A stretch of DNA of 46,089 bases from Actinocrinis puniceicyclus (GTDB lineage Bacteria > Actinomycetota > Actinomycetes > Streptomycetales > Catenulisporaceae). Both the position numbers and the translations under genes were made by a program. Below, piece after piece: positions 20,254-40,884 of this stretch. The DNA lies in NCBI RefSeq assembly GCF_018283645.1, contig NZ_JAGSXH010000045.1, positions 1 through 46,089 of the forward strand. The letters run 5' to 3'. Positions within the stretch are counted from its first letter, which is position 1. Each line of letters begins with the position of its first letter. The notes under the pieces are model-generated. The model ran no database searches, was not told the origin of the DNA, and saw nothing but the letters and a program-made list of their open reading frames with translations.

Positions 20254-21039
20254 TCAGCAACGCTGGTAGGACACCAGCTCGCCGCGCGCCGGGGACATCA
20301 GGATTCTGAAGTGGCGAGCCAGGCGCTGCACGTCGACGGGCGCGTGGATCAGCGTGCCGATCTCAAGGTTGGCGCCCAGTGCCCGGCCGGTGAGGTTCGC
20401 GCTGCCGAGCAGCACCTTGGCGTCGTCCACGATGATGAACTTGGCGTGCATGACGGCGCCCGCGGGTCGCCGGTGCTCGGGCCAATGCCACACGTGCACT
20501 CCCGGTATCGCCGCGAGCCGGGCCGCGGCGTCGGTGCCACGCGTCTCGGCGATGGCGTCGACCTGGACCGCGCGGGCCGCGGCCGCCGCCAGATCCGCGG
20601 TGATGTCCGCGACGTCGTTGGTCGCGTAGGTCGCGACCAGGATGGTCCGCTCGGCCCCGGCGATCAGGCTCGACGCGACGGCCGCGGTGTCGCGTACCGG
20701 TTCGGTGCGGTCGCGCGGTCCGGAGATCACCCACTCCAGCGCGTGGTCCGCGTCCCATGCCTCGTACTGCGCCGCGGCGGTACGCAGCGCGAACGCGAGC
20801 GTCGCGCCGTACGGTCGCGGTTCGGCGGCGCGCCACTCGGTGGACAGCCGCTCGGCCAGCGGCCCGAGGCCGGTGCCGCCGGGCCTCGCTTCGAGCAGCG
20901 CCGCCGTGAGCGCGGGCCCGGGGCCAGGGTGTGCTTCCAGCACCTTGACCCAGGCTTCGATGTGCGCGGGGCCGAGGGCGGTCGCGATGCTCGCCATCGT
21001 CTCCGGGAGCCGGGAGCGGGATGAGAGCGGTTCGTTCAT
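20254..21039 (-). CDS. drmC: DISARM protein DrmC (phospholipase D-like)
   Basis: This 261-residue protein carries one complete PLD/HKD motif, HAKFIIVDDAKVLLGSANLT (about residues 200-219), in the C-terminal half and a divergent N-terminal half; PLD-fold enzymes with a single motif act as dimers. A nuclease or phosphodiesterase function is expected. DrmC is the least essential member of the known DISARM core. ATG 21039 overlaps the drmB stop by 1 bp (TGATG), and upstream in-frame codons running into drmB were rejected. It is the last gene of the five-gene DISARM run. Confidence 0.9.
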   Translation of the reverse strand: MNEPLSSRSRLPETMASIATALGPAHIEAWVKVLEAHPGPGPALTAALLEARPGGTGLGPLAERLSTEWRAAEPRPYGATLAFALRTAAAQYEAWDADHALEWVISGPRDRTEPVRDTAAVASSLIAGAERTILVATYATNDVADITADLAAAAARAVQVDAIAETRGTDAAARLAAIPGVHVWHWPEHRRPAGAVMHAKFIIVDDAKVLLGSANLTGRALGANLEIGTLIHAPVDVQRLARHFRILMSPARGELVSYQRC

Positions 21040-22970
21040 CAGGCGGCGGTGGCCGGCAGGCCGAAGAAGCCGAGGCCGGTGCCGCTGTGCGCGAAGGTGT
21101 CCACGAGCAGCGCGCGGTCGAGGTAGCGGTTGCCTGCCTCGCAGGAGGTCTCGGCGGCGAACAGGCAGGCGTGGCACGCGGCGCCGTGCAGACGGCCGTG
21201 TTCGCGCGGGTCGTGCTCCGAGCACAGCGGGTCGGAGCCGCACAGTTGCGCGGACTCGATCGCCTGGCCCAGCAGCGGGATGAGGCGGTCGCGCTCCCCC
21301 AGGCTGACCAGTCCGCCGAGCGTGCCCTCGCTGTCGGGCGCCGCCGTGTAGAGCAGGAGGCCGGCCATGGGCTGCTCGCCGCTCCTGGCGTAGATGCGTT
21401 CGCTGATGCCGGAGGCGCCGTAGCCGCATTCGAGGGCGAATTCGCGGATGAGGCAGTGCGCGAGGGTGTGCAGCAGGATGTAGCGCACCCCGGGCCAGTC
21501 CAGTTCGACGCCCATCGTCTGGCACCATTTCGCGTGCGCGGCGCGCAGGACGCTCGCGCGTCTGTGTACGGCGTCGAGTTGTTCCCAGCGGGCGATCCGG
21601 GCCTCGTCGAAGCGCAGGAAGATCCCTTCGCCGCGGGTTTCCGCGCACGGCACCCAGCTGGGCGGGTTCGAGCTGATCGGCGCGCAGCGCCGGTTGTCGG
21701 CGCCGACCGCGCCGGCGGAGGTGTCCCAGTCCGGCGCGTCGAGGCGGGTGAACGCATACAGGGCGCTGACTTCACGCAGCTTCGTCACGCGCACGATGTC
21801 GGCAAGCGCGCCGACCGGTGCGCTCTCGCCCGGGGCGGCGATGCGTCCGCGTTCGCGGCGTGTGGTGAAGTCGTCGAGGCTGTGTTCGCGCTGGTCGGTG
21901 AACGCGGCCCATTCGGGTACACGCAGGTCGACGGCTTCGTCCGGGGAGTCCGCGTCGCCGCCGCCGCCGCTGCCGCTGTTGCTGTTGCTGCTGCCCGGCG
22001 TCGTCGCGGCGGCGGCGTGCAGCGCGGCGATGGTCCGGTACACGCTCTCGATGCCGAATTGTTCGAGGTCGCGCCAGGAATACTGGGTCGGAAGCAGGGC
22101 TTTGACGGTCTCGGCGGGCAGTGGGGCGAGGAGGCTCAGCGTCTCCCAGTGTTCGCGCACGGCTTGTTCGACCGGTTCGTCCGTGCGCGGGAGGGAGAAG
22201 ACTTTCAGTTGCATGGCGAACCAGCTGTTGGTGGCGCCCAGGGCGAGGGTGCGGGTCTGTTCGCCGCAGGGGTCGAATTTCTCCAGGTGGGGGTGGCGGC
22301 CGCGGCAGGCGGGCAGGTTGGCCTGTTTGGTCTGGCCGATGGCGTCGGCCATGCTGCGGCTGGCTCCGCATGAGCAGATGACGAAGATGTTCGCCGCCTC
22401 GCCGGTGGTGCCGCGTTCGACGAGGGTCAGGGTGTGGCCGGGGTCTTCGTCGACGCCGCCGTGGACGAAGTAGAGCCAGGGGAAGTCGTCGAGGTGCCCG
22501 TTGGGGCAGGCGAGGACGAAGCGCGCGGGTAGCGCCGTGGCCGGTACGCGGTGGTTGTGCACGTAGCGGGTTTTCTCGGGCGCGTAGTTGTTGGGTTTGA
22601 GGGTGAACAGGCCGGAGCGGGCGCGGGCCAGCAGGTTGCAGGACAGGTTCGAGCAGCGCAGCCACCCGGGGAAGACCTCGACGGGGACGCCGATGCCGGC
22701 CCAGTTGCCGAAGGGGTCGCGGGTCCTGGGTTGGTGCGGGGGCAGGCGCAGTTGGGCGACCTGCGGCCCGAGCTTGCGGCGCACGGCGGTCAGCAGGCGT
22801 TGTTCCGTGACGACGGCGGCGTTGCCGGGGTCCCAGCGGTCCAGGCCCATCACCATGACGGACAGGTTGGGCAGGTCGGCGATCGAGCCGATGCCGAAGG
22901 TGTGCAGCAGTTGACTCGGGCGCAGTTCGCCGACCCGCAGCCGGTTGTCGGTGGGTGCGGTCGCGGTCAC
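21039..22970 (-). CDS. drmB: DISARM protein DrmB (DUF1998)
   Basis: This 643-residue protein begins with the DrmB signature RPSQLLHTFGIGSIADLPNL and includes NPPSWVPCAETRGEGIFLRF. The DUF1998 domain at the C-terminus has Cys clusters (SDPLCSEHD, ACHACLFAAETSCEAGNRYL) suited to metal binding. In DISARM, DrmB forms a complex with the DrmA helicase that loads on DNA with 5' overhangs and helps recognise incoming phage DNA. GTG 22970 overlaps the drmA stop as GTGA (4 bp). A Ser/Asn/Gly-rich low-complexity stretch near residue 325-340 (SSNSNSGSGGGGD) is a likely flexible linker. Confidence 0.93.
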   Translation of the reverse strand: MTATAPTDNRLRVGELRPSQLLHTFGIGSIADLPNLSVMVMGLDRWDPGNAAVVTEQRLLTAVRRKLGPQVAQLRLPPHQPRTRDPFGNWAGIGVPVEVFPGWLRCSNLSCNLLARARSGLFTLKPNNYAPEKTRYVHNHRVPATALPARFVLACPNGHLDDFPWLYFVHGGVDEDPGHTLTLVERGTTGEAANIFVICSCGASRSMADAIGQTKQANLPACRGRHPHLEKFDPCGEQTRTLALGATNSWFAMQLKVFSLPRTDEPVEQAVREHWETLSLLAPLPAETVKALLPTQYSWRDLEQFGIESVYRTIAALHAAAATTPGSSNSNSGSGGGGDADSPDEAVDLRVPEWAAFTDQREHSLDDFTTRRERGRIAAPGESAPVGALADIVRVTKLREVSALYAFTRLDAPDWDTSAGAVGADNRRCAPISSNPPSWVPCAETRGEGIFLRFDEARIARWEQLDAVHRRASVLRAAHAKWCQTMGVELDWPGVRYILLHTLAHCLIREFALECGYGASGISERIYARSGEQPMAGLLLYTAAPDSEGTLGGLVSLGERDRLIPLLGQAIESAQLCGSDPLCSEHDPREHGRLHGAACHACLFAAETSCEAGNRYLDRALLVDTFAHSGTGLGFFGLPATAA

Positions 22971-25900
22971 TGGTCGGCTCCTGTCCTGGTGGTAACTGTG
23001 CCGGTGGTTCCCGTGCCGGCGGCTCCCGTGCCGGCGGTTCCCGTGCCGGTGGTTCCCGTGCCGGCGGCTCCCGTGATGGTGTCCGCTGCGCCGCCGCCCG
23101 CCGCGTTCTGGTCCTCGTCGCTCGCCCGGGCCGCCCAGGCCGGCTCGTCAGTGTCCTGATCGACCTTGGTGTGGCTGTCGGGGTCGTGGCTGAGGATGAG
23201 CTGGATTCCCGGTTCGACGTTGCGCAGCGAGGTCGGGCAGGTGAAGCGGGTCCACGCGCCGGTTTCGGGCTCGCGCAGCAGGGCTTCGATGTCGCCGGAC
23301 TGCGTGCCGCGGCCGACCCGGTAGCCGAGCCTGATGCCGGGTGCGCGTCTGCGCCGTTCCCAGTAGTCCAGCCGGTCGTCGAGGTGGCGCTGTATCTGCT
23401 CGCCGATGGCGCGGTGCCCGGTCACGTCCAGCGCGCGGCGCCGCAGGTACTGAGTGACGTGGTCGGCCAGTTCGGAGTCCCGGGTGAGGTAACCGGCACC
23501 GAGGTTGGTGTTGTAGTCGGGTCGCAGGTCCCGTACGAGCGCGGCCAGGACGCCGGACAGGCCGCGGTCGATGGCCCGGTCCGCGAAGGGCGTGACGGAC
23601 AGCGCCTCGACGTGCTGGTACATGGTCGCGTGGAAGGCTTCGAAGGATTCGTAGTGGGACAGGTCGCGCGGCCGGGCCCAGTTGTAGACCGTGAAGACGA
23701 GGCCCGGTGCGGCCCGGCCGACGCGGCTGGTGGCCTGGATGTATTCGGCCGGTGACTTGGGCTGGTTGGCCACGATCATCGCGCCGAGCCGGGGGACGTC
23801 CACGCCGACGGCGATCATGTTGGTGGCCAGCAGCACGTCGACGGCGCGGGCGCTCTCGGCGCGCTGGCCCTCGGACCCGGACCGGCTCGGCCCGGCGTCG
23901 GGGCCGTATCCCGCGGATCGCCCGGTGTAGGAGCGTTCGAGTTCGGCCAGGACGGCCGGGATGTCCTCGTTCGACATCCGGGAGGTCAGTTCGCGCAGTT
24001 GCGGTTCGCGCCGGTTGGCCAGGCCGCGTTCGGCGGCCCGGCCGACGCGGGTGGTCACGTCGTCCTCGACGAGGCGGCGCATCCCGCCGAGGTCGCGCAG
24101 CGAGTTGAAGTACCCGACGACGGTCATGTACGGGTCGGTGATCTCGTTGCGGCCGTACTTCTCGTGCAGCGCGTGTGCCGCCGCCAGCAGCGCGACGTAG
24201 ACCCGGATGTGCGTGTTCTTGATCCGCGATCCGTGCGCGCACAGGCCGACGTAGAGGCGGCCGGGCCGACTGCCGGGGCCTTGGACGGGGCGGGTGCGGG
24301 CGAAGAACGAGTCGTCGGCGTCCAGACCGGGCGGCGGGAAGATCCGGGTCTCCCGGTTGAACAGCGCCCCGATCTGTTTGCGGGCGCGGCGCACGGTCGC
24401 GGTGGAGGCGATCACCTTGGGCCGCACGTATTTCCCGGGGCCGCGCTCCCAGGTGGCGAGCCGGTCGACGGCCGATTCGTAGAGCCCGACCAGGGAGCCG
24501 AGCGGGCCGGAGATCAGGTGCAGCTCGTCCTGGACGATCAGGTCCGGCGGCCGGATGCGCGCGCCGGGCAGGATCCGCGCGGGCGGCAGCGCATCGGTGG
24601 CCTGATGGCCCGTGGCGCTTTCCCAGGCGGCGCTGGTGGTTTCGGCGGCCAGGTGCCCGTGCCGTTCGCAGTACCGGTCCACGCCGCCGAACAGCGTGCG
24701 GGTCGCTCCCTGCCAGGGCAGTTGCGCGAACTTGTCCACGGTGGCGATCACCAGGGAGGGCAGCAGCCGGTAGAGCTCCTCGTCGGTGACGACCACCGGC
24801 AGGCCGGGCTCTGCTCCGTGCGCACCGGAATACTCGCCCATGGGCCCGAAGGGGCAGTACATCACGTCGGGGCAGCGAACCCACGTACGGCGCAGGCCCT
24901 TGAGATCGACGGTGACGGCGCGGGCCGCTTCGAGCGCGCTGCCGCACCACGGGCAGTGGGTGAGCTGGTGCGGGCTGCCGCCGCCGAGCCGGGGCCGTCC
25001 CTTGTCCCGGTTCAACTCCCGCACCCATTCCTCGGCCCGGTCCACACTGTTGGGGGTCACGTCGCCGCCGACCCACAGTCCGATCCGGAACGGCTCACTG
25101 CCCCACCGCGCGGTGTCGGCGCGGCGCAGGACCTCGCAGGCACAGATGAGCGCGGCGGCGCGGTAGAACTGCTGGATCGTCAGCAGCCGCAGCGTATACC
25201 GCATCAGTACCGCGATTCCCCGGTCGGCGCGGTAGCCGCCGTATTCGGATTCGGGTTGCAGGCGCCGGATGGCGAGGGTGAACGCGGTCAGTCCCAGGTA
25301 TGCCTCGGTTTTCCCGCCGCCGGTGGGGAACCAGAGCAGGTCGGCGATCGCGGCCTCGGTGTCGGTGGAGCGCTCCGGGTGCCCGGGGTCGGCCAGCGCG
25401 GGCAGGTTGAGCAGGAGGAAGGCGAGCTGGAACGGCCGCCAGGAGCGGTTGCGCGCGGCGCGCTCGTCCGCGTCGGCGGCGGCGACAGCCTGATCGGGTA
25501 ACAGGTTCGGGTCGCGGCGGCGTTGCGCGGCGGCGATGGTGTGGATGCGCTGCTGGTGCATCGCGCTGTTGGCGAACCGGAACGCGGCCAGCGCGCGCTC
25601 GTCGCGCAGGCCGGGTGGACCGGTGAGCAGGTCGATGCCGGCTTCGATGCGTGTCGCGGCTTCGCGCGCGGCGGTCAGGGTGTCGCGGATCTCCGGCCTG
25701 AAGCCGTCGAGTCGTGCTTCGGGTTGCCCCGCGTGGCGCTGCGCACGCTCGATCCAGGCGCGGTAACCGGTGACCAGCGGTAGCAGCGCGGCGCGCAGCG
25801 GTTCGGCTTCGAGAGCGGCGAGCACCTTCATGTCGAGCACGAGGGAGGCCAGTTCGGGCAGGTCCGGGTCGGCGGCGGCGTCGGGTACGTCGGTGGCCGG

Positions 25901-26797
25901 CAGTTCGTGCTGCGGCGCGGTGGCGGTGACGATGCGCCGGGCCCGCATGGGGTCGCCCGGGTCTACGTGCGCGTGTGCGCCGCAACTGTGGCCGATGGCG
26001 AATTCGGGCAGGAGCCGGTAGGCCATGGCGAGCCGGCGTTGTTCGGCCCGGTCGGTGGCGTCTCCGCCTTTGCTGGTGCGGTCCGCGGGGCGGCGCGGCA
26101 GGAAGCACGCGGTGTCGTTCGCCGATCGCGCGGCCAGTTCGGCCTGGAACACCCACGGCCGCACGCCGATGCCGGATTGGGTGTTGACGAGGAACAGGGT
26201 CACCAGCCACGCGTCGTCGTGCCAGCGCACACGGCCGCGCACCTTGACGTCAGGGACCTGTGGGTCGAGGGTTTGCGCGGTGATCGTGCCTTCGGCGAGC
26301 TTGACCGGGATCTCGCCGCCGCGCGGCTGCCGCTGGTAGCGGCGGGCTTGTGGCCGTTCGGGGTCGGCCACACTCGTGTATTCGCCCCAGGTCGCGGAGA
26401 CGAGCAGTTCGGTGACGGTGCCTTTGACGCGCGCGGTGAATCCGAGGGATGACGGTACGAGCGAGGGTGTGTTCGGTGCCTGGGTTTCCGGGTCCGTGCC
26501 GTTGTCGTCGGTGTCGCAGCTGTCGCTTTCGGCGAGCGTGTCGAGTTGGTCGGGTGCGACTTCGGTGCCGTTGGGGGCGAGTTTGCCCAGGACGTACCAT
26601 TCGCGCGGGTCGTTGCCGAGTTGTTCTTCGTCTCCGTGGACGGGTCCGCGCAGGTCGCGCACGACCATGGCGGCCAACTCGTCGCGCACCTCCTGCGGGG
26701 TCGGCGCGCGCAGAATCGACCCGGGGCCCGGTCCGGTATCTGGCCCTGACCCGGGGTTCTCGGCGGACGAGTCCTCGACGGAGAGTTGTTCGCTCAC
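22967..26797 (-). CDS. drmA: DISARM helicase DrmA
   Basis: This 1276-residue superfamily 2 helicase has Walker A WFPTGGGKTEAYLGL at about 485-500. The DEAH-type box QDELHLISGPLGSL lies at about 754-768 and ASTATVRRARKQI at motif III position. The C-terminal helicase half has NMIAVGVDVPRLGAMIV and EYIQATSRVGRAAPG near residue 1025. A zinc-like CPWCGS cluster (about 625) and CPDVMYCPFG lie between the two halves. DrmA with DrmB is the DNA-translocating core of DISARM. GTG 26797 is the start. The last 30 residues are Gly/Thr repeats encoded by the 15-bp repeats at 22998-23072, which are not part of the conserved protein. drmMI ends 98 bases upstream. Confidence 0.93.
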   Translation of the reverse strand: MSEQLSVEDSSAENPGSGPDTGPGPGSILRAPTPQEVRDELAAMVVRDLRGPVHGDEEQLGNDPREWYVLGKLAPNGTEVAPDQLDTLAESDSCDTDDNGTDPETQAPNTPSLVPSSLGFTARVKGTVTELLVSATWGEYTSVADPERPQARRYQRQPRGGEIPVKLAEGTITAQTLDPQVPDVKVRGRVRWHDDAWLVTLFLVNTQSGIGVRPWVFQAELAARSANDTACFLPRRPADRTSKGGDATDRAEQRRLAMAYRLLPEFAIGHSCGAHAHVDPGDPMRARRIVTATAPQHELPATDVPDAAADPDLPELASLVLDMKVLAALEAEPLRAALLPLVTGYRAWIERAQRHAGQPEARLDGFRPEIRDTLTAAREAATRIEAGIDLLTGPPGLRDERALAAFRFANSAMHQQRIHTIAAAQRRRDPNLLPDQAVAAADADERAARNRSWRPFQLAFLLLNLPALADPGHPERSTDTEAAIADLLWFPTGGGKTEAYLGLTAFTLAIRRLQPESEYGGYRADRGIAVLMRYTLRLLTIQQFYRAAALICACEVLRRADTARWGSEPFRIGLWVGGDVTPNSVDRAEEWVRELNRDKGRPRLGGGSPHQLTHCPWCGSALEAARAVTVDLKGLRRTWVRCPDVMYCPFGPMGEYSGAHGAEPGLPVVVTDEELYRLLPSLVIATVDKFAQLPWQGATRTLFGGVDRYCERHGHLAAETTSAAWESATGHQATDALPPARILPGARIRPPDLIVQDELHLISGPLGSLVGLYESAVDRLATWERGPGKYVRPKVIASTATVRRARKQIGALFNRETRIFPPPGLDADDSFFARTRPVQGPGSRPGRLYVGLCAHGSRIKNTHIRVYVALLAAAHALHEKYGRNEITDPYMTVVGYFNSLRDLGGMRRLVEDDVTTRVGRAAERGLANRREPQLRELTSRMSNEDIPAVLAELERSYTGRSAGYGPDAGPSRSGSEGQRAESARAVDVLLATNMIAVGVDVPRLGAMIVANQPKSPAEYIQATSRVGRAAPGLVFTVYNWARPRDLSHYESFEAFHATMYQHVEALSVTPFADRAIDRGLSGVLAALVRDLRPDYNTNLGAGYLTRDSELADHVTQYLRRRALDVTGHRAIGEQIQRHLDDRLDYWERRRRAPGIRLGYRVGRGTQSGDIEALLREPETGAWTRFTCPTSLRNVEPGIQLILSHDPDSHTKVDQDTDEPAWAARASDEDQNAAGGGAADTITGAAGTGTTGTGTAGTGAAGTGTTGTVTTRTGADQ
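22998..23072. repeat. Five tandem 15-bp units in the 3' end of drmA
   Basis: Five units of the form GTGCCGG(T/C)GG(T/C)TCCC start at 22998, 23013, 23028, 23043 and 23058. They encode the repeated Gly-Thr-(Gly/Ala) tail of DrmA on the minus strand. Length changes stay in frame because the unit is five codons. Confidence 0.9.
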
Positions 26798-26895: not shown

Positions 26896-29800
26896 TCAGA
26901 AGAGCCGGTCGTCGTCGCTGCCGGGGATGAGGCTCATCTGGGTGCTGAGGCCCGGGACAGTCGGGGCGGCGGTGGCGCGAGGGGACGCGGCTCGTTTCGC
27001 GGAACTCTTCTTCTTGTCGTGCAGGCCGAGCCTGACCTCTTCGGCGTAGCGGGACTGGTTCAGTTCGAGGAGACGGTCAAGGATCTCAACCTGGGCTGCG
27101 GGGTCGATGGTGTAGCGCAGGCCGTGGGTTGTGACGTGGAAGTCGTGGTTGAGGTCGAGGTCTGCCCAGTCCGCGCAGTCAGGGGTTTGCTGGTAGGCGC
27201 GGAAGACGGCTTCGTCGATGAGCTTGTGGATGGCGCGAAGCTCGACGATATCCGGGTCCTGGTTGGCACGGTCGTGGAACTCGTTGTAGAGCTTGGTCAG
27301 CCCGAGATTGCGGTCAAGCATCGTCGCAGAACGGAACTCGTGCAGTCGCGTGCCAAGGTCGCGGAGTTCGTCGGTGAGGTTCGGCTGAGCGAACGTCTCG
27401 AAGCCATCTGACGGTGTGTAGCGGAGGCGCGTCTCAAGGGTCGAGTTGCCCTTCTCCGTCCACCACGCGAAGTGGAACGCACTGGACAGCAGCGCAAAGA
27501 ACGCCGCGTCGTCCGAGGCAAAGACGCCAAGCATGTGCGAGAAGACGGTGCCGGTCGGGACCATCGCAATCGCGCCGTACTTGCTCACGAGCGAGATCAC
27601 GATTACCCGCTCCAGCCCCTCAATCGCCTTCCGCAGCGCTGGCGCCACCTCACCGTGGCGCCACCAGTACCTCCTTCGTTGTTCGCGCGCGTTCTTGTCG
27701 CGAATCGGCTTTACGCGCTCGACAACAACTTCAAATGGTCTCGTATACCTCGCGGCGCGACTCTCATCCCAGTCATTGAAGTCGATCACCCACCTACTCG
27801 GCGAACAATCTGGGCGCGAGTTGAGGTCGTCACCGTTGAGATACGGGAAGACGACTTCTTTGTTACGGGGATCAGCCGTGAGCAGCGAAGCCGCCTCGTC
27901 AGGCTCGAGAACGAATCCGATTCCGACAAGGTTCGATCCCTGAAACGCAGTATCCGCATTGCGCGCCAAGCGCTCCGGATTACCGGTAGCTCTCGATGCG
28001 GGATCGAGAGTCGGCGCAATGGACACAACCGGCTGTCGATCAAGAAAGCATTGCTCAGACTCGCCTGGCTGGCCGCACCATAGGAGCGACACCGAGACGT
28101 TCGCCGTCCCAGGCCACTTCTGAGACTTCACCGCGCGGTATACAGGGAATGCGCGACCATCCAGCTGGTCAAGACCAACCTCGCGCGTGTCTCCCTGCGC
28201 GATCGTGTTCGTAGCGATGATCCCGATCCGACCACGCGGCGCCGCCGCAGCATTGCGCAGCAGGAAGTAAGAGCACAGATCCGCTGATCCCCGGACTCCG
28301 CCCGCAAGCCGTGCCACCAAATAGTCGCGATAATCGTCGCCGTTGGACCCGGTGATCTTCTGTCCGCCCACGAACGGCGGGTTCCCCACTACCGCATCAA
28401 ACGCCTTCTCCGGCCTACTACCCGACGACGTCCCCAGCACCTCCGGGAACTCCAGTGCCCAGTGCAGCGGCCGGATCGGCTCTTTCCTCGGCCCACTCGC
28501 CGGCCCCTTCAGCCAGCCATCGACCACCCGCCGCACCGCATCGTCAGCCGCCGAATCCCCGCTCAGCGCATCCGCCAGCTTCGGCGCAAGTCCCGCCAAC
28601 CGATCGTCGTACGCATCGTCAGACTTCTGCTCCGCTGTCGAGAGCGCCGCGCCGACCACCGCATCCGCGACCAACCGCAGCTGATCCGTCAGCCCCTCCG
28701 CCTCCGCCAGCAGCTTCGCCTTCGCGTCCGCGTCGCGAATATCGTTGTCCGGCATCGACTCGATCTCGCGCCGTAACTCCGCCGCCCGGCTGAACAACGG
28801 CGCGGCCCGCTCCTGCAACAGGTTGATCAGCACGTCGTTCTGAACCATCTGCCGCGACGGGTCCAAATGGAACGCAGTGATCTGCTCGGCGGTGATCGTG
28901 CCCACCAGCGAGTCCCCGCACCGCAGCGCGTGGTCCACGAACGAGAACGGCCGCCCCTTCGCCAACGTCACCAACCACAGCGACAGCTTGCCGAGCGAAA
29001 CCGCCATCGGGTCCCGGTCCACGCCGTACAGACACCGGTCCACGACCATCCGCCGCGCCGCGAGCAGCAACAGATCCCGGTCCTCGACGCCCGCCAGATC
29101 CTCCGGCCGACCATCCCGCTCCCACGCCTCCACCACGCGCTCGCTCAAGTATCTGCACGCTGAGACGAGGAACGCGCCGGAACCCATCGCCGGATCCAGC
29201 ACCCGCAACTTCAGCAACTGCTCTCCGGGCAGCACATTGCCCAGCGCTGCCGGAACTCCATCGGCCGGACCCGGCCGGTAGCACAACGGCTCAAGCGTGT
29301 ACTTCACGACCTCCTCGGCCAGCGAACGCGGCGTGTAGTGCGTGCCGGTATTCCGCCGATCGCCGACCTGCGTGATGACCAGCGAGCCAGTAGGGAACAC
29401 CGTCGGCAGGCCCCGCAGATCCGTGCGCAGCAGGCCGTGGAACGGTTTGACCGTCTCGGCCAGCTGCGCGTCGTTGTCGCAAGCGGCATGCAGGTTCGCG
29501 TATTCAATCTCCGCGACGGGCCTCGTCAGGCCCTTCGCGACCTGCGTATCCGTCGCGCCAAGTGCCGCCTTGAGCTCCTGCTCCAGGGCCGACTGTTGCC
29601 ACGACAGCACCTTCGACAGCGGGATCTCCGGCTCGTTCTTCCCCATGAACCCGAGGTAGGGCTCCTGCGCGCGCAGACACGAAAACTCCAGCAGACCCTC
29701 GTACACGTGCCCGATCTGCTCGACGTCCAAGCCCTTATACGAGAGCCGTTCCGGCGTGTCGCGGCGCCTGCCGTTCTTGTCGATCCGCAGCATCAGCAGC

Positions 29801-31062
29801 GCATCCAGGATGCGATAGACGACGCGGTCGGTCACCTGCATCGGCTCAAGCCAAGGGAACTCCCCCGGATCGAACAGCGAACCGCCATACGCCGGGATGC
29901 GCAGATCCGGGTGCATGCAGCCGTCGTGGATCGCGCGGAAGAGCGCGAGCAGACGCGGCCAGGCGGCGGCCTGCCGGTCGCCGATCTCGGCGCCCTCGCG
30001 CGACCTCGACTCGTGCAACTGCTCGTACAGCGAGCCGACCGCGTACGACTCCTGATACAGCGGGTCGTCGATCGGCAGCAGCCGCTGCTCCTCCGCGTAC
30101 AGCAGGAACACAGCCCGCAGCATCACGGTCAGCGCCGCGCGGTAGACGGCCGGCGGCTCGACCTGGACCAGCAGCTTCAACCCCGCTTCCCGATCCAGGC
30201 GGGACAGTTCGCCGGTGAGCAGTTCCACCGCCAGCAGAACCTGTTTGCCCAGGGTGTTGGTGACCTCGACCGTGTCTTCCGCAGTGCGGGCGATCAGCGC
30301 CGCGAGCGAACCGGTGAACTCACCCCTCGCATCGCGTTCCGGCAGCGCGGCGCGCTCCGGCCGCAGCAGCGTGACGAAGGCCCGCAGCAGCAGCGGCTCC
30401 TCCAGCCAAAGGTCCGGATCGAACCGCGCGACGCTCACCGGCTGACTCGCCCGCGCATGCACCAGCACGAACTCGCGTCCGTTCGTCAACAGCGCCAGCG
30501 GCACCCGGCGCGCACGACACAACGCAGCAGCCTGATCGATCGCGGACACCGACTGATGCCGCGCCGGCTTGTCCAGCCGCGTGCGCGCACCCTCCGGCCA
30601 CGGCAACCGGTACACCAGCACCCGCTCCTGCGGTCCGCTCTCGCCGCCGCCCGGCGTCGGCGGCCCGACCAGCACACCGTTCGGGCGCAGCGCACCCTCA
30701 CCATGGAAGCCCGCCACATTCACGCCCGCCGCGCCGAGACCACCGAGACCGCCCGGCACACCATCGCGCCACACCTGCCCGCGCCAGCCCAGCAACTCGC
30801 CGAGAACCAGCTCCTGCCAAGCGCTGCACAACCCGTACGGATCCTGCTGCACCTCAGCCCACGCCTGCCGGATGCGGGCCGTCCGCTCCGTATCCAGCTT
30901 GTCAAGGCCCTGCGGATACGCGTCGGCGCGCGTGAGCACGGACACCGACAGGAACGGGCCGTCCGGGCGCAGCAGCCCGAGCCATTCGGCGTGCTGATCG
31001 GCCGGGCTCTGCTCGGTACGCACCGCGCGCTTGGTGCGAGTCATCGCCATACGCGCCGCCAT
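26896..31062 (-). CDS. drmMI: DISARM adenine-specific DNA methyltransferase DrmMI
   Basis: This 1388-residue Eco57I/PglX-like N6-adenine methylase has motif I LDPAMGSGAFLVSACRYL (about 625) for S-adenosylmethionine and the catalytic NPPFVGGQKITG (about 893-904). The specificity (TRD) half follows, with DWDESRAARYTRPFEVVVER and RRYWWRHGE. It marks host DNA so that the DISARM helicases spare it. Start ATG 31062 is 6 bases after the drmD stop, with GGGAG inside the drmD end as ribosome-binding site. From about 27000 to 28360, i.e. the part after the NPPF motif, wobble positions are visibly less GC-rich than in the rest of the gene. Bases 27901-27960 are 31/60 G+C against 42/60 at 30361-30420 in the N-terminal half. 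Confidence 0.92.
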   Translation of the reverse strand: MAARMAMTRTKRAVRTEQSPADQHAEWLGLLRPDGPFLSVSVLTRADAYPQGLDKLDTERTARIRQAWAEVQQDPYGLCSAWQELVLGELLGWRGQVWRDGVPGGLGGLGAAGVNVAGFHGEGALRPNGVLVGPPTPGGGESGPQERVLVYRLPWPEGARTRLDKPARHQSVSAIDQAAALCRARRVPLALLTNGREFVLVHARASQPVSVARFDPDLWLEEPLLLRAFVTLLRPERAALPERDARGEFTGSLAALIARTAEDTVEVTNTLGKQVLLAVELLTGELSRLDREAGLKLLVQVEPPAVYRAALTVMLRAVFLLYAEEQRLLPIDDPLYQESYAVGSLYEQLHESRSREGAEIGDRQAAAWPRLLALFRAIHDGCMHPDLRIPAYGGSLFDPGEFPWLEPMQVTDRVVYRILDALLMLRIDKNGRRRDTPERLSYKGLDVEQIGHVYEGLLEFSCLRAQEPYLGFMGKNEPEIPLSKVLSWQQSALEQELKAALGATDTQVAKGLTRPVAEIEYANLHAACDNDAQLAETVKPFHGLLRTDLRGLPTVFPTGSLVITQVGDRRNTGTHYTPRSLAEEVVKYTLEPLCYRPGPADGVPAALGNVLPGEQLLKLRVLDPAMGSGAFLVSACRYLSERVVEAWERDGRPEDLAGVEDRDLLLLAARRMVVDRCLYGVDRDPMAVSLGKLSLWLVTLAKGRPFSFVDHALRCGDSLVGTITAEQITAFHLDPSRQMVQNDVLINLLQERAAPLFSRAAELRREIESMPDNDIRDADAKAKLLAEAEGLTDQLRLVADAVVGAALSTAEQKSDDAYDDRLAGLAPKLADALSGDSAADDAVRRVVDGWLKGPASGPRKEPIRPLHWALEFPEVLGTSSGSRPEKAFDAVVGNPPFVGGQKITGSNGDDYRDYLVARLAGGVRGSADLCSYFLLRNAAAAPRGRIGIIATNTIAQGDTREVGLDQLDGRAFPVYRAVKSQKWPGTANVSVSLLWCGQPGESEQCFLDRQPVVSIAPTLDPASRATGNPERLARNADTAFQGSNLVGIGFVLEPDEAASLLTADPRNKEVVFPYLNGDDLNSRPDCSPSRWVIDFNDWDESRAARYTRPFEVVVERVKPIRDKNAREQRRRYWWRHGEVAPALRKAIEGLERVIVISLVSKYGAIAMVPTGTVFSHMLGVFASDDAAFFALLSSAFHFAWWTEKGNSTLETRLRYTPSDGFETFAQPNLTDELRDLGTRLHEFRSATMLDRNLGLTKLYNEFHDRANQDPDIVELRAIHKLIDEAVFRAYQQTPDCADWADLDLNHDFHVTTHGLRYTIDPAAQVEILDRLLELNQSRYAEEVRLGLHDKKKSSAKRAASPRATAAPTVPGLSTQMSLIPGSDDDRLF

Positions 31063-31068
31063 GACAGA

Positions 31069-34000
31069 TCAGCTCCCGTGGGCCAGCGACGCGGGGACGA
31101 GGAAGGTCACGGCCGCGGCGAAATGCCGCGGGGACGGATCGGCATAATGCCTGCGCAACGCCTCAGTCTCCTGCGCCTCAAGCTGCGGCAACTGCTGGTA
31201 GCGGCGTTCCAGTGCGCTGCGGTCCTGCCGCGCCTGATCCCGCTCCTCCCCGACCGCGAGCAGATCCAGCTGCTCATAGCGCTGGCTGTCGCTCAGCGCG
31301 CTCTCGATGTTCCGGCGAAGCTCCGCGAGCACGACGCGCATGTCCTCGATCTCCTGCGCACACCGGCGCTCCAAGGTCTTCGCCTGCTTACGCGCCGCCT
31401 GCTCGGAGGTCCTGGCCAGCGCGCCGGCCAGGTCAGGACCGAGCCGCGGCCACAGCTCGGCCAGCTGCTCCCGCATCGCGCCCGCAGGTTCGTCCCCGCC
31501 CGCCGCGCCGAGCCACGCGCGCAACTCCTCGGCCGGCCGCGTCACCAGCCCTCCGGCCTCGATCCGGCCGCCCGCCAACACGACCTCCTCATGCAGGCGA
31601 ACCCCCGAAGCCCCGGTGATCACCACGCGGCCGTGCGCGACGACCGCCGGAACACGCAACAGGTCGCCGGGAACGAGCCGGGCCGTCACCCGGCTCAGCC
31701 GCGCCGCCTCGCCGCCCTTCCACAGTTCCGCGCGCAGCAACCGCAGGCACATCTGCACGAGACGGTGACCGAGGTGCAGCAGCACCACGCTGTTGGTCCT
31801 GCCCGTCACCCGGTCGCCGTCGAAAGTGACCGGACGCTCCTTGCCCGTGACCGGATGCCGCAGGCCGTCGTTGCGCGCCGCGGCCCACGCACCGGGCAGC
31901 TCCGGCAGCGTGAAACAGCGTCCTTCGAAACCCTTCGGCGGCTGCGCCTCGGTCAGGTCGCGGCCGTGCGCGAGACGCAGCGCGGTACGCACGACGTGCT
32001 CCAGCGTCCGCGGCGAGAGCCCCATCGCGTCGCGCGAACCGTCCAGCGCCGCACTGAGCTCCTCAAGCCGGTCGCGCAGATCGCGCTCGATCCGCAGCAG
32101 CGCGCGAGAAGAACGCTGCGCGATCTCGCTCTCCGCGCCGCGCCAGTCGGTGCGCTTGCCGAGCATCTTCTGCTCCACCTGACGCGCGATCACATCACCG
32201 GCCGAACCGAGATCCTCGCGGATCTGCTCGACCTTGCGCACCGCGGTGCTCAGGAAACGCAGCTCGTCCTCCAGCGAGCCGTCCGCATCGTCCGAGCCGT
32301 CCGAGCCGCCGATGTCGCCGGCCATCCGGCCGCCGCGCTCATCCCAGCCCTCGGGCACGAAGTGGTAGACCTCGACCCTCGGCGCGCTCTGCCCGTGCCG
32401 GTCGATGCGGCCGTTGCGCTGCTCCAGCCGGTTCGGGTTCCACGGGATCTCCCAGTGCAGCAACCGATGGCAGTGATTCTGCAGGTTGATACCCTCGCTC
32501 GCGGCGTCCGTGGCCAGCAGGATGCGCACCGGGGAGTTGGCCGGATCGTCCTGGAAGACCTCCTTGACGCGGGTGCGCTCGTCCTCGTCCTGGCCGCCGA
32601 AAAGCTGCGCGATCCGCTCCCTGGGAACGCGGGCGTCGTTGATCAGCCGCTCGTAAAGCCAGTTCTGGGTGTCGCGGTACTCGGTGAAGACGATGACGCG
32701 CTCATCGGACCAACCGCCCTCGGACCGGCCCCCATCGGACCGGCTCTCATCGGACCGGCCGTCCGCACCGGAAGCCCCGCCAACGCCACCGGCTCGGCCC
32801 GAGCGCACGATCGGGTCGAGCCACGCGCGGAACGCGGTGAACTTGTCGTCCGGGCGGTGCGCGGCGTCGCGTGCCCACTTCTCCAGGCGCTCAAGCAACT
32901 GCTCCTCCCGCGCGTTCAGCGGCTCGACCACCCGGCGAGCCGCCGCCAGCGCATCGGCGCTGACCTGTGCGAAAGCCCTGTCGTCCTCGGCGCTCTCCTC
33001 GACCTGCTCGAACAGCGGCCGCAACACCCGGGGCGCAAGCTCCTTCGTCTCCGCCCGGGCAAACGCGTCCGCGCCGCGCCGCCGCATGGTCTCCCGATGC
33101 ACCGAGATCGTCTCCGCGAACGCGTGCGGACTGGAAAGGAACCGCTTCTTCAGCAGCATGATGACGAACTCCTCGGCCGTCTGCTGCGCCGCCGCCCCGG
33201 CGCGCGAGCGCCGACTGGCCGCATACTCGCCGAGCAGCGCGTGCGCCGAACGCGAATCCTCGCCATAGCTGACCTGCACGGCGTCGAGCACCCGCTGCGG
33301 GAAGCGCGGCGAACCGTCCCAGCGCGGCGGCAGATCCCGCTTGAGCCGGCGCACCATCACCTTCGCCTTCTGCTCCTCGGTCGGGCGCACCCCGCGGGCG
33401 AAACGGTGATCGTCGAGCAGTTCGAGCAGCGCCTCGAAGGACTCCGGATAGCCGTTGTGCGGCGTCGCCGAAAGGAACAGGCGATGCTCGCAATGCGGCG
33501 CCAGCGTCTTGATCGCCTTGGTACGCAACGAATCCACGGCGTACTTCCCGCTGCCCGCCGGCGCGCAGGTGTGCACCTCGTCCACCACCAGCAGGTCGAA
33601 CGCGCGCGGATACTGCGGCACGCCGGGCAGGACCTCGCGCAGCAGCCGCAGCGGACGCTCCCGCTTCAGCCAGTCGATCGAAACGATCAGCCGCGGATAA
33701 TGCGTCCACGGGTTCGCATACAGCCCCTGCGAGCGGCGCAAGTCCTTGAGCAGGTCGGTATCGAGGACCCGGAATTCCAGCCCGAACTTGTCCCGCATCT
33801 CCTCGTGCCACTGCCGCGTCAATCCCGCCGGGCACACGATCAGCATCGTGCGCGCCCGGTGACGCAGCATCAGCTCCTGCATCACCAGCCCGGCCTCGAT
33901 CGTCTTACCGAGGCCGACATCATCGGCGATCAGCAGATTCACGCGCGGCATGCGCAGCGCCCGTGCGACCGGGTCCAGCTGGTAGTCCTCGATCTGGATG

Positions 34001-34365
34001 CCGGAGCGGAACGGGGCCTGAAGCGCGCGGGTGTCCGCCGAGGCCACCGCGCCCCAGCGCACCGCGTGCAGGAAGGCGTCCAGCAGATCCGGCCGGTCGA
34101 AGCCGCGGCGCGGATCCGGCAGCGCACCCGACTCGCTCACCCCGGCGCCCGGCTCCAACTCCCAGATGACGCGCAATTCCTCGTTCCCGGCGTCGGAGTC
34201 CACCGAGACCAGGCTCACCAAATGCTGCGGCGGCGTCGTCAGATCGGCCAGCGGATCGTCCACGCGCACACTGGACGCCTCGACCCCGGCCACCACCCAC
34301 GGCCGGTTGCGCACGGTGACCAACTGGCCGTCGCCCGGCACCGCCGCCCTCGCGACCTGCGTCAT
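31069..34365 (-). CDS. drmD: DISARM SNF2-family helicase DrmD
   Basis: This 1098-residue Swi2/Snf2-type ATPase marks class 1 DISARM. Walker A is ADDVGLGKTIEAGLVMQ (about 145-160). The DExH box is VVDEVHTCAP near 260, with SATPHNGYP as motif III. The helicase C domain carries LLATDAASEGINLQNHCHRL and WNPNRLEQRNGRIDRHGQ (about 615-665). A Cys-free, helical C-terminal third follows. I chose ATG 34365 instead of the longer frame to 34494. GAGGGG lies 7 bases before it, and the extra 43 residues are repeat-derived. It is the first gene of the DISARM operon, with promoter elements expected in the 208-base gap shared with the divergent UvrD-like gene. Substrate engagement in class 1 DISARM is not fully known. 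Confidence 0.93.
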   Translation of the reverse strand: MTQVARAAVPGDGQLVTVRNRPWVVAGVEASSVRVDDPLADLTTPPQHLVSLVSVDSDAGNEELRVIWELEPGAGVSESGALPDPRRGFDRPDLLDAFLHAVRWGAVASADTRALQAPFRSGIQIEDYQLDPVARALRMPRVNLLIADDVGLGKTIEAGLVMQELMLRHRARTMLIVCPAGLTRQWHEEMRDKFGLEFRVLDTDLLKDLRRSQGLYANPWTHYPRLIVSIDWLKRERPLRLLREVLPGVPQYPRAFDLLVVDEVHTCAPAGSGKYAVDSLRTKAIKTLAPHCEHRLFLSATPHNGYPESFEALLELLDDHRFARGVRPTEEQKAKVMVRRLKRDLPPRWDGSPRFPQRVLDAVQVSYGEDSRSAHALLGEYAASRRSRAGAAAQQTAEEFVIMLLKKRFLSSPHAFAETISVHRETMRRRGADAFARAETKELAPRVLRPLFEQVEESAEDDRAFAQVSADALAAARRVVEPLNAREEQLLERLEKWARDAAHRPDDKFTAFRAWLDPIVRSGRAGGVGGASGADGRSDESRSDGGRSEGGWSDERVIVFTEYRDTQNWLYERLINDARVPRERIAQLFGGQDEDERTRVKEVFQDDPANSPVRILLATDAASEGINLQNHCHRLLHWEIPWNPNRLEQRNGRIDRHGQSAPRVEVYHFVPEGWDERGGRMAGDIGGSDGSDDADGSLEDELRFLSTAVRKVEQIREDLGSAGDVIARQVEQKMLGKRTDWRGAESEIAQRSSRALLRIERDLRDRLEELSAALDGSRDAMGLSPRTLEHVVRTALRLAHGRDLTEAQPPKGFEGRCFTLPELPGAWAAARNDGLRHPVTGKERPVTFDGDRVTGRTNSVVLLHLGHRLVQMCLRLLRAELWKGGEAARLSRVTARLVPGDLLRVPAVVAHGRVVITGASGVRLHEEVVLAGGRIEAGGLVTRPAEELRAWLGAAGGDEPAGAMREQLAELWPRLGPDLAGALARTSEQAARKQAKTLERRCAQEIEDMRVVLAELRRNIESALSDSQRYEQLDLLAVGEERDQARQDRSALERRYQQLPQLEAQETEALRRHYADPSPRHFAAAVTFLVPASLAHGS

Positions 34366-34573
34366 CCGCGCACCCCTCGCCGCTTCCACCACCTGCGGAT
34401 CATCGTAATGCGCGCCGCCGGACCACCGGACCACCGGACCGAACTGCCGAACCGCAGGAGCGGCGGAACACCGGACCACAGCAAACCACAGCAAACCACA
34501 GCAGCGGCGGCGGCATCGCGCAGCGGAAGTCTACGGACACTCACAGGCACGAGGCAGCGCTACGCTGACATTC
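34366..34573. promoter_or_regulatory. Divergent promoter region of DISARM and the RelE-UvrD gene, with short tandem repeats
   Basis: These 208 bases separate the divergent starts. GGACCACC repeats about 2.6 times at 34420-34440. ACCACAGCAA repeats twice with a third partial copy at 34475-34503. GAGGGG before drmD is visible at about 34373-34378 on the minus strand. No -35/-10 pair is convincing. The direct repeats could bind a regulator or may be simple slippage. Confidence 0.45.
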
Positions 34574-36682
34574 GTGCCGCGCCTGATGCTCGCCAGTGAA
34601 TTCCTCCCCGCCTACGCCAAACTCGACCCGCCGGTGCGCGCGCGGGTGCAGTCCGTGTTCGGTAAGTTCGCCGAGCACACCTTCGCCGGACTGCACCTGG
34701 AGAAACTCCAGAACGCGCGCGACGAACGGGTACGCACGATCCGGATCGACAAATTCTGGCGCGGCATCGTGCTGGCCCCGGCCAGCGGCGACCAGTACTG
34801 CCTGATCAATGTCCTGCCACACGACGAGGCCATCGCGTACGCGCGAAGCCGGCTCTTCAGCGTCAACCACGCCCTCGGCGTCATCGAGATGCGCGACGCG
34901 GAGAAACTCGAACTGATCGCACCCGCGCTGCGCATCCAGGCGCAGGCGGCCCCTGAACGGCTCTTCGCGGCGTTCCCCGACAAGGACCTGCTGCGGCTCG
35001 GCATCGAACCAGACCTGCTGCCCCTCGTGCGGGACATCACCAGCGAAGCCGCGCTGCAAGCCGTCGAGCGGCTGCTGCCCCAGGCGCAGGCCGACGTGCT
35101 CACCGCGCTCGCCAGCGGACTGAGCGTCGAGGAGACCTGGGCCGAAGTCAGCGCCGGATACGCCGAACAGTGCGCCGCAGCCGAGAGCGTCGACACCGAG
35201 GACCTCGGCGCCGCCCTGAGCCGCAGCCCCTCCTTCGCGGTGGCCGTGGCTGGCGAAGCGGAACTCGCCGCGATCCTCGACCAGCCCTTCGACTCCTGGC
35301 GAGTCTTTCTGCACCCCAGTCAGCGCCGCCTCGCGTACGCGGCCTCATACGCGGGCCCGGCACTGGTCACCGGAGCCGCCGGCACCGGAAAGACGGTCGT
35401 GGCGCTACACCGCGCCGTCCACCTCGCGCGGCACCGGCCGGCGCTGCCGGTCCTGCTCACCACGTTCACGCGCGCGCTCTCCGACAACCTGCGCGCCTCC
35501 CTCGACCGGCTGGAAACCGGCCAGGAGGTGCTCGCCACCGTCGACGTGCAAGGGGTCGACCAGCTCGCGCACGCGGTCTTCAGCGAGCAGCGCGCGTCAC
35601 TCGGCGAGCACTGGGCAGTGGCCACCGACGCGGACCAGGCCGCCGCCTGGCAGCACGCGCTCGATCTCACGCAGGCGCCCTTCGCGCCGGAGTTCCTCGC
35701 CGACGAATGGGAACACGTCGTCCTCGCCCAAGACCTCACCACCGCGGCGCAATACCTCGCCTGCTCGCGCGCCGGTCGCGGCGAGGCCCTCGGCCCACGG
35801 CAGCGCGAGCAGGTGTGGCAGGCCATCGACATCGCCGCCGCGCAGCTACGCGCCGCGAACAAGTGGACCTTCCTGCAGATCGCGGCCGAGGCAGCCCGCG
35901 TCCAAGCCGGCAAGAGCGCGCCGCGCTACCAGCATGCGGTCATCGACGAAGCACAGGACCTACATCCGGCGCACTGGCGACTCCTGCGGGCGTGCGTCGC
36001 CCCGGGCGCCGACGACCTGTTCCTCGTCGGCGACCCACACCAGCGGATCTACCGCAACAACGCCTCGCTGCGCGCACTGGGCATCGAGGTGCGCGGCCGC
36101 AGCAGGAGACTGACACTCGGGTACCGCAGCACCAGCGAGATCCTGGACTTCGCGGCCGGCATCCTCACCTGCCGGCAGGTCGCCGACCTGGCAGACGGGC
36201 AGAACAGCGACAGCCTCAGCGGCTACCGCTCCCTGCTGCACGGCCGCAAGCCGTTCACACGCGCCGCCGCGCATCGCGCCGAGGAACTCGACGCGCTCGC
36301 CGCACAGATCAAGACCTGGCTCGCCGACGGCGTGCCCGCCGCGTCGATCGCGGTCGCGGCCCGCACCAGGCACCTGGTCGACGAAGCCGCCGAGGCGCTG
36401 CGCGTGCACGGGCTCGAGGTGAGCACCATCGAGAAGGACGCGGGCCGGCAGCCGGGCGTACGCCTGTGCACCATGCACAAGCTCAAGGGCCTGGAATTCC
36501 AGTGCGTCGCCCTCGTGGCGATCGAGTCCGGCGTCGTGCCGCCGACGCGGCTCGGTGCCGACGCCGCCGACCTGCTGCGCGAACGCTGCCTGCTCTTCGT
36601 GGCCGCAACCCGGGCACGGGACGCCCTGTACATCTCCTACAGCGGCGACCAAAGCAGCCTGCTACCCACCCTGGTCGCGTAG
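34574..36682 (+). CDS. UvrD/Rep-type superfamily 1 helicase with N-terminal RelE/ParE-like domain
   Basis: In this 702-residue protein, residues ~5-100 look like a RelE/ParE-fold domain: LASEFLPAYAKLDPPVRARV, LHLEKLQNARDERVRTIRID, WRGIVL and a strand ending VLPHDEAIAYARS. After a helical linker, the SF1 helicase core shows GAAGTGKTVVALHRAVHLA (near 265-280), HAVIDEAQDLHPAHWR (near 457), LVGDPHQRIYRNNAS (487), LTLGYRST (515), TMHKLKGLEFQCVALV (about 633) and LLFVAATRARDALYI (about 675). It probably unwinds or surveys DNA. It starts at GTG 34574 (ATG 34586 possible) with no clear ribosome-binding site, divergent from drmD. Similar RelE-helicase fusions exist in actinomycetes. A link to DISARM is inferred from the shared promoter region only. 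Confidence 0.85.
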   Translation: MPRLMLASEFLPAYAKLDPPVRARVQSVFGKFAEHTFAGLHLEKLQNARDERVRTIRIDKFWRGIVLAPASGDQYCLINVLPHDEAIAYARSRLFSVNHALGVIEMRDAEKLELIAPALRIQAQAAPERLFAAFPDKDLLRLGIEPDLLPLVRDITSEAALQAVERLLPQAQADVLTALASGLSVEETWAEVSAGYAEQCAAAESVDTEDLGAALSRSPSFAVAVAGEAELAAILDQPFDSWRVFLHPSQRRLAYAASYAGPALVTGAAGTGKTVVALHRAVHLARHRPALPVLLTTFTRALSDNLRASLDRLETGQEVLATVDVQGVDQLAHAVFSEQRASLGEHWAVATDADQAAAWQHALDLTQAPFAPEFLADEWEHVVLAQDLTTAAQYLACSRAGRGEALGPRQREQVWQAIDIAAAQLRAANKWTFLQIAAEAARVQAGKSAPRYQHAVIDEAQDLHPAHWRLLRACVAPGADDLFLVGDPHQRIYRNNASLRALGIEVRGRSRRLTLGYRSTSEILDFAAGILTCRQVADLADGQNSDSLSGYRSLLHGRKPFTRAAAHRAEELDALAAQIKTWLADGVPAASIAVAARTRHLVDEAAEALRVHGLEVSTIEKDAGRQPGVRLCTMHKLKGLEFQCVALVAIESGVVPPTRLGADAADLLRERCLLFVAATRARDALYISYSGDQSSLLPTLVA

Positions 36683-37096
36683 CATGGATCTGAAGCCTGA
36701 CCGCCGTCGCCGGTCTACGGTCTTGAGGCGGCTGTATTCGACAGACCCGCAAAACCGCTTCACGGCGGCGTGAAATAAGAATTCGGATATAGCTGCCCTG
36801 GTCAAGCCGTGGCCGAATTCCCCGAGCCGCCGATATCGCTTCCAGGTGATTCCCCGATCACGCGTGAAATGAACGATCGAGCGCAGTTCGCGGCGCCGTT
36901 CGCTCCCCGCCGCACCACCTTCCGCGCCCCTCCTCCCGGCCACCGGCACATATCCGACCCGCGTGAATACGTTCTCTGACCCGGCAGGCTTGACACACCG
37001 CCCCAGGTAAGTTCTTATTCTGATAATGTGCCGCAGCCGGAGGTAGCACGCACTTGGCTGACTTCATGATCGTGCTAGTACGGCAGCCGCCAATTG
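36683..37096. other. Gene-free, lower-GC stretch between the helicase and the IS remnant
   Basis: There is no supportable gene in these 414 bases. They are more AT-rich than their surroundings (for example around 36770-36850 and 37000-37030). A promoter-like pair, TTGACA 36990-36995 and TCTTAT 37013-37018 with a 17-base spacer, faces plus-strand sequence that has no gene. TGCTAGT occurs at 37073-37079 and 37095-37101, close to the end of the transposase frame, and may mark an IS end. It looks like the scar region of the insertion. Confidence 0.4.
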
Positions 37097-37640
37097 CTAG
37101 TTGACCAGGGTGTATGTGCGGTTGAGTCGTGCGCGGTGGTGGAACCAGCGGGCTCGGGCCTGGTGTCGGCGTCGCCAGGTGAGCCAGTGTTCGAGGTGCG
37201 CGTCGGGTTTGGCGCGGTGCAGGGCTGCGGCGAGCAGGTGTTGTATTTCGTGGACGGTCAGCGGGATCAGGCCGGGGTCGCGGGGCGGCGGCTGGTCTGG
37301 GCGCACCGGAGGCGGTGCTTGGGTGCCGGTGCGGCGCCTGAGCTACGCGGCGACGACGGCGCAGATCGCCAGGGCGGCCATGACCAACACGGTGTGGCGC
37401 GCGATGGCGGTGTAGAGGCGTGCCTGGCACTGGTCCAGGCCGAGGTAGTCCTTGCCGAACTGGTAGTTCTCCTCGCACGGCCAGCGCAGCCCGGCCGCTT
37501 TGATCAGCCGGGCCATGCTCAGCACCTGTCCTTCGGGCACGTGGCAGTAGTGGAAGGCCAACTCGCCGCTGCGTAGGTGGCGACGGATCAGCAGGTGGTG
37601 GCGTGGGCTGTCGGTGGCGATCCACGCCCAGGCGTAAGCC
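37097..37640 (-). pseudogene. IS701-like transposase remnant with in-frame amber stop
   Basis: The reading frame from about 37640 down to TAG 37097-37099 shows a DDE-transposase C-terminal half of IS701/IS4-like type. Recognisable parts are AWIATDSPRHHLLIRRHLR, GELAFHYCHVPEGQVLSMARL and GLRWPCEENYQFGKDYLGLDQ, in which the EE/E region is the third catalytic acid area. ARHTVLVMAALAICAVVAA follows, and further on IPLTVHEIQHLL and WLTWRRRHQARARWFHHRA. A TAG at 37343-37345 interrupts the same frame (not a frameshift). The N-terminal part is missing; at about 37640 it runs directly into the S9 peptidase. The transposase cannot be active. Confidence 0.8.
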
Positions 37641-40726: not shown

Positions 40727-40884
40727 GGCAACCTCCGTAGCGTTCGATATGCAGCGTTCTTCGATCCCCGGCCGCCCCATGGGCCCGCTGACGGCTTTCG
40801 CAGGACTCTCGTGGGTCGGGCGGGCGTCGCCGGACCCGACGAGGTGGTGCGTGGTCGGTGCCGGGCCATCCGGCCTCGCGGCCC

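Follow-up and report, generated by a model that had tools for sequence, protein, structure and literature searches.

A protein of the ArmD family, in which a RelE-like N-terminal domain precedes an SF1/UvrD helicase, is encoded beside a complete class 1 DISARM operon in Actinocrinis puniceicyclus and is probably a functional accessory of that system. ArmD genes lie beside DISARM in other actinomycete genomes far more often than chance would allow, which makes ArmD a probable, so far unlisted DISARM helper. The ArmD family itself is known; the new element here is its recurrent link to DISARM proper. The window considered below is the whole stretch of DNA that was analysed, 46,089 nucleotides of contig NZ_JAGSXH010000045.1. 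The closest named relative found for this genome was Actinospica acidithermotolerans.

The DISARM operon and the divergent helicase gene

The window contains all genes of class 1 DISARM in the order drmD-drmMI-drmA-drmB-drmC, and the operon is thus a complete member of this class (Table 1). The gene of the ArmD-like protein is located head-to-head with drmD. The start of drmD is probably ATG 34365 rather than TTG 34494, because the similarity to the family and to orthologues begins there, and this start would leave about 208 bp between the two genes. The divergent gap common to drmD and the helicase gene, as described in the original prediction, was retained after this correction. A promoter scan of the gap gave zero sigma-70 sites, the sigma-70 consensus being a poor guide in actinomycetes. 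The orientation by itself cannot show the function of ArmD. In the available parts of two papers on these systems, the described gene set of class 1 DISARM does not list a RelE-UvrD protein (PMC9142583, PMC12458937).

Table 1. Features of the DISARM-armD locus in the window
Feature	Position	Strand	Size or basis
drmC, PLD nuclease	20254..21648	-	NF038319 168 bits, cut-off 133
drmB	21039..22970	-	PADLOC DrmB 252 bits
drmA, YprA-type helicase	22967..26797	-	NF038325 1274 bits, cut-off 950
drmMI, adenine methyltransferase	26896..31062	-	PADLOC DrmMI 1537 bits
drmD, SNF2/RapA-like helicase	31069..34494	-	PADLOC DrmD 1325 bits; NF038317 1280 bits, cut-off 610
Intergenic gap common to drmD (likely ATG) and armD	34366..34573	.	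~208 bp
ArmD-like protein, RelE-like N-terminal domain and SF1/UvrD helicase	34574..36682	+	702 aa
RelE-like domain, aa 1-108	34574..34897	+	Predicted model, fold matches, conservation over 98 rows
Helical linker domain, aa 136-198	34979..35167	+	Predicted helices; without Pfam family
SF1A/UvrD-type helicase core, aa 247-697	35312..36664	+	Pfam PF00580, PF13361; Foldseek to UvrD/PcrA/Rep
Walker A GAAGTGK, aa 267-273	35372..35392	+	Sequence
Walker B / motif II DEAQD, aa 458-462	35945..35959	+	Sequence

The reading frame starts with GTG, which is kept in an 80%-identical homologue, and has zero internal stops. From about residue 255 onward, the UvrD-helicase and UvrD_C Pfam domains are matched far above cut-off. 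The Walker A residues G267, G270, G272 and K273 and the motif II residues D458, E459, Q461 and D462 are each present in 98 of 98 aligned rows, and the further SF1 motif residues checked are retained in essentially all of these homologues. In the full-length model (pLDDT 80.8), the top Foldseek matches are UvrD/PcrA/Rep. The Pfam domains and the motif residues across the 98 homologues thus confirm the complete SF1 helicase that had been proposed. No ArmD-like protein was matched in the phage records searched; the search of genome contigs gave one close homologue and no others.

ArmD identity and the RelE-like domain

The full-length similarity, the RelE-like fold and the PADLOC assignment to GajB show the protein to be a member of the ArmD family. 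It is 39.5% identical to the ArmD-type proteins of Escherichia coli and Klebsiella plasmids over 99% of its length (aa 2-697), and this assignment follows from the fact that the plasmid homologues mostly sit in ARMADA-like operons. ArmD homologues were found in 48 plasmid records. Ten plasmid neighbourhoods were inspected, two of them unannotated; most of the annotated ones resemble ARMADA II operons, the E. coli and Klebsiella proteins coming after a methyltransferase and a giant DEAD/DEAH helicase. The ArmD of ARMADA II is similar to the window protein in length and motifs. ARMADA was defined in a 2025 preprint by Bell et al., where ArmD is described as the product of the fourth gene of type II, a GajB-like UvrD helicase with an N-terminal RelE-like domain (PMC12458937). 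The claim of a novel architecture for the RelE-UvrD fusion was therefore rejected.

The window locus is not an ARMADA type II system. In ARMADA type II, the genes form an ArmA-ArmB-ArmC-ArmD operon and ArmC is a single-chain YprA helicase, whereas the partner in the window is a class 1 DISARM with split DrmA/DrmB and the PLD protein DrmC, transcribed divergently. The tblastn search with an 1836-aa ArmC-type protein gave no match in the window, and the ArmB query gave weak matches inside drmMI and nothing else. The best PADLOC family of the window protein is GajB of Gabija (116 bits), also a UvrD-type helicase, from which it differs by the added RelE-like domain. GajA is absent next to the gene, the neighbours being drmD and an S9 peptidase gene, and the protein is thus not part of a Gabija system.

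The AlphaFold2 model of aa 1-134 (pLDDT 82.4, pTM 0.71) resembles the RelE/YafQ/YoeB toxins (best Foldseek E 5.7e-4) and has a predicted beta-alpha-alpha-beta-beta-beta core with an extra hairpin. VIA comparison of the predicted model gave Z 11.2 with Thermus thermophilus RelE (2khe; rmsd 2.2, 87 residues), Z 9.3 with ribosome-bound RelE (4v7j) and Z 7.5 with Cami1, which was solved on the 70S ribosome and which we take to be a RelE-domain effector. The fold is common to RelE, YoeB and YafQ (VIA Z 8-11), but unlike in these toxins the domain is fused to a helicase and its sequence is not recognisably related to theirs. The Pfam search of the N-terminal part gave no family, the PDB sequence search with the domain (single-sequence and profile) gave no RelE, and hhalign against six actinomycete RelE/ParE toxins gave a probability of 1.2, that is, no similarity at the sequence level. 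Since sequence-level kinship with RelE is undetectable, the name RelE-like refers to the fold, and the domain as modelled belongs to the RelE/ParE superfamily by fold and not by sequence profile. The RelE/ParE-type N-terminal fold of the original prediction, for which a fold prediction had been proposed as the check, is supported by the AlphaFold2 model, Foldseek and VIA alike. The accompanying suggestion of ParE-like gyrase poisoning was dropped as unsupported.

Four residues of the domain are near-invariant among the 98 homologues: R57 (95), R63 (97), H83 (96) and D84 (96); R63, H83 and D84 are present in 10 of 10 ARMADA rows. Near what we take, by eye, to be the position of the C-terminal tyrosine of RelE, 87 of the 98 rows have W, and the window protein has Y89. 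The prevalence of W at this place, as well as the lack of a sequence match to RelE families, could mean that the fold is catalytically dead and serves as a binding or assembly module, docking for example to DrmAB or to the helicase, with ArmD being only a DNA motor. This is possible but rather doubtful, because the four residues are conserved in all contexts beyond the apparent need of a scaffold. Such a reading concerns the domain and is compatible with an accessory role in DISARM. In the parts of the literature covered by the search, no demonstration of RNase activity of the ArmD RelE-like domain was found.

The same four residues, together with the resemblance to RelE, including its ribosome-bound form and Cami1, would also suit a guarded abortive-infection toxin. 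The helicase would then sense phage DNA or the loss of DISARM and release the RelE-like domain, which would cleave mRNA on the ribosome and so arrest the cell. This version is the least likely and may be called improbable: there is no sequence-level RelE match, no antitoxin-like partner was recognised adjoining the gene, and the defence by ARMADA II, the only relative tested, is reported as direct and non-abortive (PMC12458937). The independent abortive-infection gene considered in the original prediction thereby loses likelihood, although the gene does join other systems as well.

Linkage of ArmD to DISARM in actinomycetes

Of the 245 same-order genomes surveyed for ArmD, 78 have a total of 87 places at E <= 1e-60. 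This set contains 30 class 1 DrmD loci above cut-off, and a class-wide sample of 394 contributed another 25 DrmD loci, from 24 genomes belonging to other orders. Together, the two sets give 55 class 1 drmD loci from 53 genomes of actinomycetes, phylogenetically related ones included. At 22 of the 55 loci (12 of 30 in the same order and 10 of 25 in other orders), an ArmD homologue is found within 40 kb of drmD, compared with about 0.63 linked loci expected from random placement; this count omits the 12 weakest of 46 other-order ArmD rows (E above 1e-60), none of which is within 40 kb of drmD, and the linkage of G673 in it presupposes that the single contig of this genome is circular. The enrichment beside DISARM, whose absence had been named as evidence against the original prediction, was therefore found. 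The other 33 loci have no ArmD within 40 kb. The link is recurrent but belongs to a minority of loci, and ArmD is not a standard component of class 1 DISARM.

Two control genes were examined in these 53 genomes: McrC lies near 3 and PglZ near 0 of the 55 drmD loci. Per copy, 22 of 60 ArmD genes are near drmD versus 0 of 29 for PglZ (P=4e-5) and 3 of 19 for McrC, the latter comparison being weak because the difference is not significant (P=0.10). McrBC itself has been reported to be associated with a DISARM-like system (PMC11090510). On plasmids, 0 of 22 DrmD records were among the 48 ArmD records. The genome of the window has a second class 1 DISARM (G000:C355:22542-41457; L157, L158), which is located on a 49-kb contig without ArmD and in which a GmrSD-type gene adjoins drmD.

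The arrangements at the linked loci fall into several types. The armD gene is head-to-head with drmD at three loci (the window, G013 and G855) and with drmA at five (G037, G072, G155, G189 and G055); it is also head-to-head with drmA in G156, which was excluded from the 22 because its drmD is on another contig. Seven loci (G563, G621, G629, G712, G728, G743 and G758) have a codirectional drmD-MI-A-B-C-(methylase)-kinase-armD operon, with the N6 methylase in five of the seven and kinase-armD gaps of 37 to about 125 bp in the six measured. A GmrSD-type gene lies between DISARM and armD in G089, G173 and G232, and two kinase-like ORFs do so in G145; armD is convergent beyond drmC in G673, and the arrangement is loose in G821 and G233. 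The Ser/Thr kinase of the codirectional operons has a Pkinase domain and TPRs and aligns near full length with the kinase preceding armD in type I restriction islands; in G629 it was seen by tblastn only, and it is absent from the window. A heuristic based on GC content at the third codon position was used to call neighbouring genes, whose ends are therefore approximate; flanks were covered for 80 of the 87 ArmD places, plus the second copy inside L042 and the window, with five places left out.

Comparison of the window with G013 (different genus, 80% identity), with flanks reaching 2.6 kb past drmC and 17 kb past armD, showed collinear proteins for drmC-drmB-drmA-drmMI-drmD-armD only, with one extra row given by an antisense ORF inside drmC, which is the same stretch. 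Since the match is confined to these six genes, armD is part of the conserved block.

The ArmD tree of 98 rows was built by a quick method with SH-aLRT support only; it has long branches among the ARMADA rows, excludes L038, which duplicates L074, as well as rows shorter than 600 aa, and carries context labels assigned partly by hand. Among the rows, 27 are found with McrBC, 23 with DISARM, 18 with Hsd, 10 with ARMADA and 20 in other contexts. DISARM-linked ArmD occurs in at least four clades, and the DISARM label requires 9 changes on the tree versus a shuffled mean of 20.9. The rows of the codirectional operons together with G821 form one clade (8 rows, support 100), and the ARMADA rows fall outside the main radiation of actinomycete sequences. 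ArmD is thus promiscuous, being found also with McrBC, with type I restriction plus kinase and with ARMADA.

Given this variety of contexts, ArmD might be an autonomous, mobile defence module, by itself or accompanied by a kinase or methylase, which settles in defence islands and comes to lie beside DISARM, McrBC or type I systems without cooperation. The 33 drmD loci without ArmD and the per-copy comparison with McrC are consistent with this, as is the second ArmD copy of G855 (C5), which has zero matches to DISARM queries within its 20 kb. However, the short-gap head-to-head pairs with drmD or drmA and the close spacing in the kinase-armD operons exceed loose clustering, the exact block of DISARM and armD is conserved between genera, and ARMADA II was reported to need all four genes for defence against phage HK022 in E. 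coli (PMC12458937). A module without cooperation is for these reasons unlikely, and the accessory role in DISARM remains the preferred reading.

Several of the other contexts have a regular composition. McrB-McrC, ArmD and an N6 methylase occur together in L052, L054, L067, L072, L073, L075, L079, L080 and L082, with McrB-McrC uncalled in L067 and the methylase uncalled in L072. In these L052-L082 loci, a divergent drmA-like gene is located about 4.5 kb upstream; the one of L082, the only one tested, is below the NCBIfam cut-off. In L071, L076, L077, L102 and similar loci, a PD-T4-6-like kinase gene and armD come after HsdR-type type I restriction genes. A nuclease-helicase of about 2,000 aa (MTES_1575; ProA/Hhe-like) is convergent to armD in L081, L083, L090, L091, L092 and L096, and armD is therefore between the nuclease-helicase and drmA-B-C.

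Possible role of ArmD in DISARM defence

The accessory DISARM component of the original prediction is favoured by the link itself, by the conserved operons and by the six-gene block, while the majority of loci without ArmD stands against its being a general part of the system. The analogy with ARMADA II also argues for this role, since deletion of armD or the Walker A mutation K266A was reported to abolish the ARMADA II defence; ArmD D454N weakened it (PMC12458937).

Unmethylated DNA carrying 5' overhangs is reported to activate DrmAB. The way in which DISARM destroys phage DNA is unsettled; its nuclease DrmC is reported to be dispensable (PMC9142583). It may be proposed that DISARM (DrmAB and the methylases) recognises incoming unmethylated DNA with 5' single-stranded ends and that ArmD, as a translocase of the 3'-5' type on single-stranded DNA, is loaded onto the same DNA, travelling along it or stripping it at the expense of ATP. 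The RelE-like domain would in this way be brought to the invading genome. Its role we can only infer: the domain could bind or cut RNA from that genome (phage mRNA during its synthesis, perhaps on ribosomes) or, alternatively, could guard the activation of the helicase. If these steps hold, the DNA would be attacked by DISARM, and a second arm, either RNA-directed or remodelling DNA, would come from ArmD.

The Ser/Thr kinase preceding armD in many actinomycete loci may regulate ArmD. It can be suggested tentatively, as a less probable extension of the accessory role, that Actinomycetota possess a separate, unnamed DISARM subtype, in which class 1 DISARM is joined by the Ser/Thr kinase, frequently together with an additional N6 methylase, and by ArmD as a second effector arm under regulation. 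The kinase-ArmD cassette would be the one also present in the type I restriction island, and the window would represent a kinase-less, head-to-head form. A search of the open literature, with supplementary tables outside its scope, found no paper in which DISARM is paired with a kinase or with a UvrD/RelE helicase. For ArmD with DISARM, this search gave PMC12458937 as the sole match.

As a recurrent helicase carrying an RNase-like domain, ArmD would be a concrete candidate for a DISARM effector, and a kinase-regulated DISARM arm becomes testable in Streptomyces. A helicase, a RapA-like helicase and a methylase have already been noted as parts shared by DISARM and ARMADA (PMC12458937); ArmD would be a further part common to both.

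The remaining features of the window lie on either side of this locus. Downstream of armD, a truncated and unrelated S9 peptidase gene is found. The S9 peptidase match in 36858-39524 covers 122 of 213 positions, and because it is short, the gene adjoining armD seems to be broken by an insertion remnant. The short ORF at 37343-37744 (-) inside this stretch has no Pfam match and presumably resembles the C-terminus of an IS transposase. Further on, a radical SAM protein (39521-40780, -) resembles SPASM RiPP maturase families, with every listed match below cut-off. Upstream of drmC, the window encodes a SLATT_2 effector-domain protein (13846-14517, +) and a calcineurin-like phosphoesterase with TPR (16110-18434, +; PADLOC PDC-S60 and, below the NCBIfam cut-off, NCBIfam DS8), which are possible further defence genes.
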